Assembly (NCBI GenBank): GCA_003223645.1
Contig: QHVT01000004.1
Span: forward strand, 1 to 59,333
Reading direction: 5' to 3'
Length of the DNA: 59,333 nucleotides
Origin: Acidobacteriota bacterium
GTDB taxonomy: Bacteria; Acidobacteriota; Thermoanaerobaculia; Gp7-AA8
The notes under the pieces: generated by a model
Databases searched by the model: none
What the model was told of the DNA's origin: nothing
What the model saw: only the letters and a program-made list of their open reading frames with translations
Part shown: piece by piece, positions 1 to 23,231 of the stretch
Numbering within the stretch: position 1 is the first letter of the stretch
Layout of the letters: each line of letters starts with the position of its first letter
Program-made: the position numbers and the translations under genes

Positions 1-244
1 CCGCTCGGTTGACGGCGTCGGCTCCACGATCAGTCACATTTCGAGGCTCAATCACACAGCCTGTTCGCTCGCTATCTACGCTTCGCAGCTCGGATTGCTC
101 CGACAACACCGCGCAAGACTCGCTACCCGCTGACGGCCACTCTTGACAGGACAGGACTTTCACCTGCTGGGTTGCATCAGGAGGTTTCCACTCTGTGCTT
201 CAACTCACATCGTTTTCCCCTCCTCGAAGCTTTTCCTGGCGCAC
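1..244 (-). mobile_element. 5' part of a group II intron (domain I), truncated by window edge
   Basis: Read on the minus strand, position 244 begins GTGCGCC, matching the GUGYG 5' end of bacterial group II introns. About 90 nt further in comes GGTGAAAGTCC, a motif I associate with the domain I region of these introns, followed by structured GC-rich sequence. The reverse-transcriptase gene would lie to the left of position 1 and is not visible. The upstream exon reads ...GCGGTTG. Introns of class IIC-attC insert at integron recombination sites ending in GTT, which would fit the integrase fragment at 2541-2603, but no complete attC site could be drawn. The assignment rests on these motifs only. 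Confidence 0.55.
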
Positions 245-2030: not shown

Positions 2031-2067
2031 ACGTAGCTTGTTATCCTTCGCCGCGCTCGGGGAAGGC

Positions 2068-2434
2068 AAATTGACTTCACCGAAAGGATCGATGAATTCG
2101 CCGAGCTCAAATTGACTTCGGCGAAAGGATCGATGCATTCGCGGAAAGCAAATTGACTTCGCCGAAAGGATCGATGCTTTCGCGGAAAGCAAATTGACTT
2201 CGCCGAAAGGATCGATGCTTTCGCCGAAAGCAAATTGACATCGCCGAAAGGATCGATGCTTTCGCCGAAAGCAAATTGACTTCGCCGAAAGGATCGATGC
2301 TTTCGCCGAAAGCAAATTGACTTCGCCGAAAGGATCGATGCTTTCGCGGAAAGCAAATTGACATCGCCGAAGGATCGATGCTTTCGCGGAAAGCAAATTG
2401 ACATCGCCGAAAGGATCGATGCTTCGCGGAAGTC
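2068..2434. repeat. tandem array of nine 41-bp units
   Basis: Nine head-to-tail copies of a 41-bp unit beginning AAATTGACTTCGCCGAAAGG. Copies start at 2068, 2109, 2150, 2191, 2232, 2273, 2314, 2355 and 2395, and the last two are 40 bp. Middle copies are nearly identical and the leftmost is the most diverged. Each unit contains a short palindrome, CTTTCGCCGAAAG. Because 41 is not a multiple of three, all minus-strand frames stay open, but the translations are an artefact of repetition. There are no spacers, so it is not a CRISPR. It sits between the frameshifted gene and the integrase fragment. Confidence 0.9.
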
Positions 2435-16394: not shown

Positions 16395-16420
16395 ACCTAC
16401 TGCGTCGCTTCGCGCCGCAG

Positions 16421-16508
16421 AATTGAGAATGGAGAATTGAGGACTGTGAATTGAGCGAGCTTGCCGTTTTCCTCAATTTACCATTCCCAATTCTCAATTC
16501 TCAATTCC
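16421..16508. repeat. mirrored tandem-repeat hairpin (GAATTGAG/GAGAATTG words)
   Basis: Left arm AATTGAGAATGGAGAATTGAGGA and right arm TCCTCAATTTACCATTCCCAATTCTCAATTCTCAATT pair over about 30 nt. It lies between tRNA-Gly and tRNA-Thr(GGU) in the tRNA cluster. Confidence 0.8.
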
Positions 16509-16701: not shown

Positions 16702-16777
16702 TGGAGCTGGCGACGGGACTCGAACCCGCGACCTGCTGATTACAAATCAGCTGCTCTACCAACTGAGCTATGCCAGC
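16702..16777 (-). tRNA. tRNA-Thr (TGT)
   Basis: Acceptor GCTGGCA, anticodon arm GCTGA-TTTGTAA-TCAGC (anticodon TGT) and T-arm CGGGTTCGAGTCCCG. CCA is encoded. It is the first gene of the tRNA-rpmG-secE-nusG transcript. Confidence 0.96.
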
Positions 16778-16865: not shown

Positions 16866-16895
16866 GTTATAGCAGAAAGGCTGAACGGGAGGCAA
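16866..16895 (-). promoter_or_regulatory. sigma-70-like promoter of the tRNA/secE/nusG operon
   Basis: On the minus strand TTGCCT (16895-16890) is followed after 18 nt by an extended -10, TGCTATAAC. This places transcription about 80 nt upstream of tRNA-Thr(UGU). The same 14-mer TGCTATAACCCGCA occurs before pyrH. Confidence 0.6.
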
Positions 16896-16950: not shown

Positions 16951-17543
16951 GATCGTGACATCGACGGACCTCAACCGTGAGATCGCGACCTCAACCGTGA
17001 GGTCGGCGGACCTCAACGCGAGGTCAACGGACCTCAACGCGAGGTCGGCGAACCTCAACGTGAGGTCGAAGGACCTCAATCGTGAGGTCGACGGACCTCA
17101 ACGCGAGGTCGACGGACCTCAATGGTGAGGTCGACGGACCTCAACGCGAGGTCGACGGACCTCAATCGTGAGGTCGACGGACCTCAACGCGAGGTCGAAG
17201 GACCTCAATCGTGAGGTCGACGGACCTCAACGCGAGGTCGACGGACCTCAACGCGAGGTCGAAGGACCTCAATCGTGAGGTCGACGGACCTCAACGCGAG
17301 GTCGAAGGACCTCAATCGTGAGGTCGACGGACCTCAACGCGAGGTCGACGGACCTCAAACGTGAGGTCGGCGGATCTCAACGCGAGGTCGACGGACCTCA
17401 ACGTGAGGTCGACGGACCTCAACGTGAGGTCGGCGGACCTCAACGTGAGGTCGACGGACCTCAACGTGAGGTCGGCGGACCTCAACGCCAGGTCGACGGA
17501 CCTCAACGCGAGGTCGAAGGACCTCAACGCGAGGTCGACGCAC
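16951..17543. repeat. array of about 28 palindromic 21-bp units
   Basis: Head-to-tail copies of GAGGTCGACGGACCTCAACGC. Each unit contains GAGGTC-GACG-GACCTC (6-bp stem, 4-nt loop). The junction GACCTC-AACGC-GAGGTC is also a stem, so the array can fold in two registers. Variation is confined to the loop (GACG, GGCG, GAAG) and linker (AACGC, AACGT, AATCG), with the arms kept. All frames stay open on both strands because the unit is 21 bp. No spacers, so not a CRISPR. It lies between the rlmB stop and the tRNA operon promoter. Confidence 0.92.
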
Positions 17544-17556
17544 CACTGAGAAATCA

Positions 17557-18270
17557 CTATTTTCGCGTTTGTCGCACGACCTCGTAACACAAAACCGCCG
17601 CGGCGGACGCGACGTTGAACGAATCGACGTGGCCAAACATCGGGATCGAAACGACACGATCACAGTGCTCGAGCACGTTTCGCCGCACGCCTTTCCCCTC
17701 GCTCCCCATGACGAGCGCGACTTTCCCGCTGAAATCGATCTTGTCCGCGCGGTCGCCGTTCGCCGCGGCCGCGTAAACCCAGTAGTCGCGCTTCTTCAGC
17801 GCCTCGATCGTGCGCGCGAGATTCGTGACTTGAGCGACCGCGACCCACTCCGACGCACCCGCCGATGCTTTGACGGCCGCCGGTGTCAAGCCGACGCTGT
17901 CGTGCTCGGGGATCACGACGAGATCGACGGCGAAGCCGTCGGCAACGCGCAGAATCGCGCCGAAGTTTTGCGGATCGGTGATGCCGTCGAGGATGAGAAC
18001 GAACTTCGTTTCGTCGCGCGCGATCACGTCGTCGAAGTCGGCGTACGCGGCCTCATGCACTTCGGCGACGACGCCGTTATGCACGCCTCGTCCGGCGAGC
18101 TTGTCGATCTGCTGCGCCGGCAGCGTGCGCACGGCGACATTCGATCGCTTCGCTTCCTCGATCACTTTCTGCAGGCGTGCACTCTGTTCGCGCGCGACCG
18201 CGACGTAGCGAAGGCGATCGGGATGCGAGCGAATCGCTTCGAGAACCGGGTTCACGCCGTAAATAATCAC
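17557..18270 (-). CDS. rlmB: 23S rRNA 2'-O-methyltransferase of the SpoU/TrmH family (RlmB-like)
   Basis: A 237-aa SPOUT methyltransferase. The N-terminal substrate-binding domain starts IIYGVNPVLEAIRS (about 2-15). The three SpoU motifs are present: LDGITDPQNFGAILRVAD (about 94-111), VALVMGSEGKGVRR, and IPMFGHVDSFNVASAAAV near the C terminus. RlmB methylates G2251 of 23S rRNA in E. coli. The start is GTG 18270, overlapping the pyrD stop by four bases. It is the last gene of ispD-ispF-gltX-pyrD-rlmB, with the 21-bp array directly downstream. Confidence 0.9.
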   Translation of the reverse strand: MIIYGVNPVLEAIRSHPDRLRYVAVAREQSARLQKVIEEAKRSNVAVRTLPAQQIDKLAGRGVHNGVVAEVHEAAYADFDDVIARDETKFVLILDGITDPQNFGAILRVADGFAVDLVVIPEHDSVGLTPAAVKASAGASEWVAVAQVTNLARTIEALKKRDYWVYAAAANGDRADKIDFSGKVALVMGSEGKGVRRNVLEHCDRVVSIPMFGHVDSFNVASAAAVLCYEVVRQTRK

Positions 18271-23150: not shown

Positions 23151-23231
23151 ATGAAGGCAGAAGGCAGAAGGCAGAAGGCAGAACTGAGAACTTCTTCGTT
23201 CTGCCTTCTGCCTTCTGCCCTCTGCCTTCAT
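23151..23231. repeat. mirrored tandem-repeat hairpin (GAAGGCA unit)
   Basis: Four GAAGGCA units on the left and their complement on the right (TTCTGCC words, ending TGCCTTCAT) form a roughly 33-nt arm stem. It directly abuts the tsf terminator and the pyrH -10 element. Confidence 0.88.

Follow-up and report, generated by a model that had tools for sequence, protein, structure and literature searches.

Descriptions of bacterial satellites usually proceed one family at a time, on the basis of sequence. Multicopy intergenic direct repeats are known from Geobacter, both in G. bemidjiensis (PMC2996986) and in G. metallireducens (PMC2700814). Across the G. bemidjiensis genome, the section on repeats describes palindromic families as well as direct repeats of 6 to 42 nt between genes (PMC2996986). 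The array studied here is of this already known intergenic kind; what it adds is a period shared among arrays without a shared sequence, together with a tendency to dyad symmetry. Sequence-based repeat annotation would overlook a class whose main marks are its period and its dyads. It also raises the question whether a step of two helical turns is inherited, mutational, or selected by a protein that reads the helix. A literature search whose scope left out most subscription papers found no report of fixed-period, sequence-diverse bacterial arrays.

The focal array and its neighbourhood

The window is the whole 59,333-nucleotide stretch analysed, from an Acidobacteriota bacterium (contig QHVT01000004.1). 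It has the following features around the focal array.

16954..17544, no strand: focal tandem array, ~21-bp units of the form GACCTC-loop-GAGGTC-linker, 27.8 units (TRF and arm parse)
17072..17350, no strand: core with mostly alternating 22- and 21-bp units (unit listing and the TRF period-43 row)
16890..16895, minus strand: -35 hexamer TTGCCT of the tRNA operon promoter (read from the sequence; TTGC in 7/7 aligned loci)
16866..16871, minus strand: -10 hexamer TATAAC, 18 bp from the -35 (read from the sequence; TGCTATAA in 7/7 aligned loci)
16702..16777, minus strand: tRNA-Thr(TGT), first gene of the tRNA operon
17557..18270, minus strand: rlmB-like SpoU methyltransferase gene, its stop codon 12 bp from the focal array

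The focal array (16954-17544) was resolved by TRF into 27.8 copies of period 21 with 88% match, and in part into a 43-bp higher-order unit (21+22); the mean step is 21.27 bp. A parse that tolerated at most one mismatch per arm, and is thereby biased toward arms, gave 28 GACCTC-type arms, exact in 25, and 27 GAGGTC-type arms, exact in 25, with a single irregular spot at 16957. The loops (AACGC x13, AACGT x5, AATCGT x5, AACCGT x2, AATGGT and AAACGT) and the linkers (GACG x14, GGCG x5, GAAG x5, AACG and GC) vary in both letters and length. When the array was set out in 21 fixed columns, a cruder test than the arm parse, paired columns scored 0.94 and unpaired columns 0.92 (p 0.38), and the arms were not set apart. 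The claim of the sequence-only reading that loop and linker vary around preserved arms thus holds in the arm parse and fails in the fixed-column test.

The units are self-complementary. Pairing on the best dyad axis was 0.88 as against 0.57 with the columns permuted (z 4.0, p 0.002, 400 permutations) in a row-based test, which replaced a circular-consensus test (p 0.118) and is the more favourable of the two. The repeat array of about 28 self-complementary 21-bp units, as first read from the letters, is therefore confirmed. Its folding in two registers is true and uninformative, any tandem dyad unit having two dyad axes per period. The further claim that pairing is preserved was borne out between loci, where two families keep their arms and differ in their loops: GACCTC/GAGGT arms are common to the focal array (C29:16954) and C21:360571, and ATCCC/GGGAT arms to C29:100863 and C21:183950. 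It did not extend to compensatory change inside the focal array, where covariation reached z 1.4 and ranked third of 21 axes.

The focal array overlaps none of the genes called by a simple codon-usage caller, and its mixed 21- and 22-bp steps would shift any reading frame, which argues for a noncoding location. Rfam gave six matches in the window, five tRNAs and a piece of a group II intron, and none in the focal array; the intron match (D1D4-6, 1-160, minus strand) is cut by the window edge. The letters of the array are rare, since 4 of 147 genomes match it at E <= 0.001. Its own genome matches at four places, two of which (C21, C1) extend over 415-490 bp at 67-72%; G014 matches three times (89-202 bp, 70-78%), and the matches in G010 and G095 span 35-36 bp. 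A search of plasmids, phages and viral contigs with the focal sequence gave no match.

The array had been read as standing before the tRNA/nusG promoter, and so it does: it starts 58 bp upstream of the -35, and the operon context is tRNA-Thr/Tyr/Gly/Thr/Trp, NusG and L11. The comparison with relatives covered 14 acidobacterial loci (L101-L114), 11 of them with tRNA-Thr downstream of rlmB; no tRNA was seen there in L101, L108 and L112. The rlmB-tRNA gap is 138-211 bp long and free of arrays in L102, L105, L106 and L113. In L103, L104, L109, L110, L111 and L114 it measures 855-2556 bp, and a search for tandem arrays of 100 bp or more found none in it. L111 is the locus of the same-genus genome G001 (its coordinates equal the G001 match), and its gap resembles, by eye, a gene for an ATPase-like protein. 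In L107 the gap is 599 bp and holds an array with a 21/22-bp step (mean 21.50) and strong dyads (z 4.0). Orthology of this array with the focal one was rejected, their units being alike at 10/21 positions against a shuffled mean of 9.7 (p 0.55).

A role as regulator of the tRNA operon was rejected as the main reading, since four relatives keep the operon and its promoter and lack the array. A tie to this operon is also not supported by the other arrays, which lie beside unrelated genes. Proteins flanking five other arrays of the genome are aldo/keto reductase, metallophosphoesterase, sulfatase, carbonic anhydrase, succinyl-CoA ligase, nucleotidyl transferase, histidine kinase, acyl-CoA dehydrogenase and HMG-CoA reductase, and one of the ten is without a family. 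In relatives the tRNA/nusG operon thus does not require the array, which probably has no function in this operon. Between tRNA-Thr and tRNA-Gly (16419-16507) there is a separate inverted pair of 7-bp repeats, AGAATTG then CTCAATT, and other heptamer sets occur in neighbouring tRNA gaps of L008 (G014) and L012 (G012).

Arrays with a step near 21 bp

Tandem arrays of at least 100 bp were collected by TRF from an 800-kb sample of the window's genome (G000), and 17/22 had a period of 20-22 or 41-43. The same period class held 7/9 arrays of G014 (220 kb) and 3/4 of G005 (134 kb), where one is really a 7-bp array (lag-7 identity 0.55). Eleven other genomes, 1.22 Mb together, gave 1/14 (in G049), and the same-genus G001 gave 0/3 in 300 kb. 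The distribution is therefore patchy. The focal array belongs to a class spread over the genome and most constant in its period, which the sequence-only reading missed; if the density of 17 per 800 kb holds, G000 would carry about 136 such arrays. A second member lies in the window.

2062..2431, no strand: second array of the window, 41-bp unit (20+21 bp), arms GCGAAAG/CTTTCGC (dyad p 0.062, row-based test)

Its neighbouring called genes are 135 bp away on one side and 279 bp on the other, and it has a relative at C29:211677 (75% over 344 bp). Shorter units also occur, as an inverted pair of 7-bp arrays at 23153-23229 (GAAGGCA then CTTCTGC) and as short arrays of 7- or 8-bp units at C29 81710, 125754, 272541 and 382897 of G000, which are another common repeat class.

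The mean unit step was 20.44-21.62 bp in 22/22 measured arrays, a narrowness that comes partly by choice, from selection on TRF period; the period excess in the census does not. The measured set consisted of 14 of the 17 G000 arrays, 6 of the 7 from G014, and one each from L102 and L107. C21:241060 and C29:299470 were left out as copies of others, and C29:267421 (102 bp) after its period fit failed. Most arrays are intergenic: 12/17 in G000 overlap no called gene, in a sample of which 90-91% is called coding. The other five overlap ORFs made largely of array (scores 10-42 with the simple codon-usage caller); among them C29:211677, where the ORF score is 42 and each of the 25 steps is exactly 21, may code for protein.

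The arrays share little besides the step. Among 15 family representatives the best common motif had an IC of 9.79 against a null of 9.58 (sd 0.32), a value reached by 22/100 shuffles. An apparent shared motif in all 22 arrays (IC 9.48 vs 8.65, sd 0.26) was rejected, since related arrays were included and it vanished with one array per family. Ancestry from a 7-bp unit (21 = 3 x 7) was also rejected, lag-7 identity being 0.14-0.37 in arrays with a period near 21. Dyad pairing exceeded column permutation in 10/22 arrays at p<0.05 (Fisher 2e-9, a value too small because related arrays are in the set), and 12/22 had no significant dyad. Dyad symmetry is thus a tendency of the class and no rule. 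Paired columns were more conserved by Fisher's method (0.003; 5/22 arrays at p<0.05) and not by Wilcoxon (p 0.14; 12/22 positive). High pairing came together with clear covariation only in L107 (z 3.0, first of 21 axes); in C29:62830 covariation also ranked first of 21 (z 2.2), yet pairing was just 0.40.

Arrays of similar step are present in another lineage. In 400 kb of Geomonas edaphica Red53 (L126), 4/8 array places of at least 100 bp had periods of 21, 41, 22 and 21, with mean steps of 20.6, 41.0, 22.0 and 21.0 bp; the 41-bp unit has no visible half-repeat. The other four places had periods of 6/13, 6, 24/48 and 153. The dyad test gave 0/4 of the Red53 arrays of similar step at p<0.05 (best 0.056). 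In Geomonas limicola (L119:6777-7081) a 122-bp higher-order unit contains, by eye, ~20-bp steps with CGGTTT...AAACCG dyads.

Proposed growth of the arrays and competing readings

The focal array can be placed, with confidence that is about evenly balanced, in a lineage-specific intergenic satellite (minisatellite) class of sequence-diverse ~21-bp arrays that grow by whole units. Array families across loci are 71-95% identical. One copied pair was observed: C21:60681 and C21:241060 share 415 bp at 95%, which takes in the array together with 97 bp of its flank; the two copies are oppositely oriented, and the array is 437 bp long at the first and 318 bp at the second. A palindromic MITE-like element (91.5% over 71 bp) adjoins C21:60681 (L157:607-677) and C21:360571 (L172:405-475).

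On this satellite reading, whole units would be gained and lost by slippage or unequal exchange, as the 43-bp higher-order units and the unequal lengths of the copied pair indirectly indicate. Arrays would be copied into other intergenic gaps, sometimes with flanking DNA as in that pair, and their sequence would drift freely while the ~21-bp step persists. The self-complementary arms probably reflect a copying bias, in which units that form hairpins as single strands slip and spread, so that arms would persist and loops wander. The failure of arm conservation in the Wilcoxon test and the 12/22 arrays without a dyad mean that such hairpin-driven copying cannot be the whole story.

The period is most likely held by descent, by the DNA helix, or by both. 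First, decayed array edges may keep the step and then be re-amplified. The 97-bp flank of the copied pair contains degenerate 21-mers and matches the C21:318850 array (59 bp at 83-85%), and over 44 array edges the identity at lag 21 was 0.294 (SE 0.012), a weak autocorrelation, with the other 19 lags between 12 and 31 giving 0.244-0.276. The degenerate 21-mers and the edge autocorrelation suggest cycles of decay and re-amplification in which the step would be retained and the letters lost. Under descent some motif should be common to the arrays, and the absence of one counts against descent as the cause of the period. Second, two helical turns may be physically required for growth or binding, an option favoured by arrays that have steps near 21 bp and yet are unrelated, those of Geomonas included.

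One rival, possible and rather unlikely, is a phased protein-binding array. Half-sites would alternate every ~10.5 bp and place the dyads on one face of the helix, where a dimeric protein would form a cooperative filament like that of ParR on plasmid centromeres; ParR wraps tandem repeats and makes contacts per 10-bp repeat (PMC5016525). A step near two turns whatever the sequence, the dyad tendency, and the arms kept between copies at different loci agree with it. Predicted curvature, calculated with wedge values, is high in the focal unit (z 3.1) and in its relative C21:360571 (z 4.3), a feature that a neutral satellite does not need; it points the opposite way from the fixed-column arm test. 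Over the 22 arrays, however, curvature from the same wedge values is not raised (mean z 0.43, SE 0.32), and A/T phasing at 21 or 10.5 bp is absent. No single sequence-reading protein fits arrays without a shared motif; with array-specific sequences, several paralogous proteins or one that reads shape or spacing would be needed. The lack of such an array in 300 kb of the same-genus G001 also argues against a phased protein array.

Somewhat more doubtful is a structural satellite independent of sequence, in which spacing (two helical turns) and dyad geometry would be kept and the letters not. One architectural protein or topological mechanism would then serve the many arrays of the genome that have no motif in common, at the number per genome estimated above, and the arrangement would have arisen separately in Acidobacteriota and Desulfuromonadota.

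An RNA-level device is improbable. Transcripts reading out of rlmB would form chains of hairpins that terminate, stabilise or insulate, and so shield the tRNA operon. RNA folding was strong in 10/10 segments (five 150-nt stretches from four arrays, both strands; z -3.0 to -8.5), although the dinucleotide shuffles used as reference break the periodicity and exaggerate these z values, column permutation being the fairer test. Folding of single-stranded DNA was likewise strong in 9/10 segments, and C29:211677 did no better than shuffles (z 1.6). Divergent gaps make up 64/329 gaps of at least 60 bp and contain none of the 17 G000 arrays (p about 0.025 by hand), which fits a device acting on transcripts; in G014, however, 1/5 placed arrays is in one (one of six was unplaced). 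Folding of the focal array is about equal on its two strands, it has no run of four T or A, and the operon gap is array-free in four relatives, all of which count against an RNA device.

An assembly or sequencing artefact is very improbable, for although the copy number of such arrays is uncertain without long reads, the focal units differ from each other, three assemblies of the family carry unrelated arrays, and Geomonas edaphica Red53, which is recorded as a strain, has arrays of similar step.

Comparison with known systems

The Geobacter repeats cited at the outset belong to another phylum, and in the section of PMC2996986 that deals with them neither a fixed ~21-bp period nor a dyad tendency of tandem units is reported. 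REP/BIME elements with RAYT, as usually defined, are alike in being small intergenic palindromes of many copies. They differ in not being tandem 21-bp arrays of changing sequence, and an origin by a RAYT-type transposase was rejected here because counts of the Y1 transposase family PF01797 do not follow the arrays. In a search that left out G014, the array-bearing G000 and G005 had 1 and 15 matches, and genomes without such arrays in the sampled stretches had 14 (G009), 8 (G018), 8 (G004), 7 (G011) and 0 (G001).

ParR-bound parC centromeres are closer in geometry, with tandem helix-phased sites and dyad-related half-sites (PMC5016525). Iterons, by their spacing, resemble them in this. The arrays described here differ from both in being many, chromosomal, diverse in sequence and placed beside unrelated genes. 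Bacterial minisatellites or VNTR loci are alike in their tandem intergenic units, their higher-order units and the length differences between copies. They differ in one respect: here most of the long arrays sampled in one genome share a period and not a sequence.
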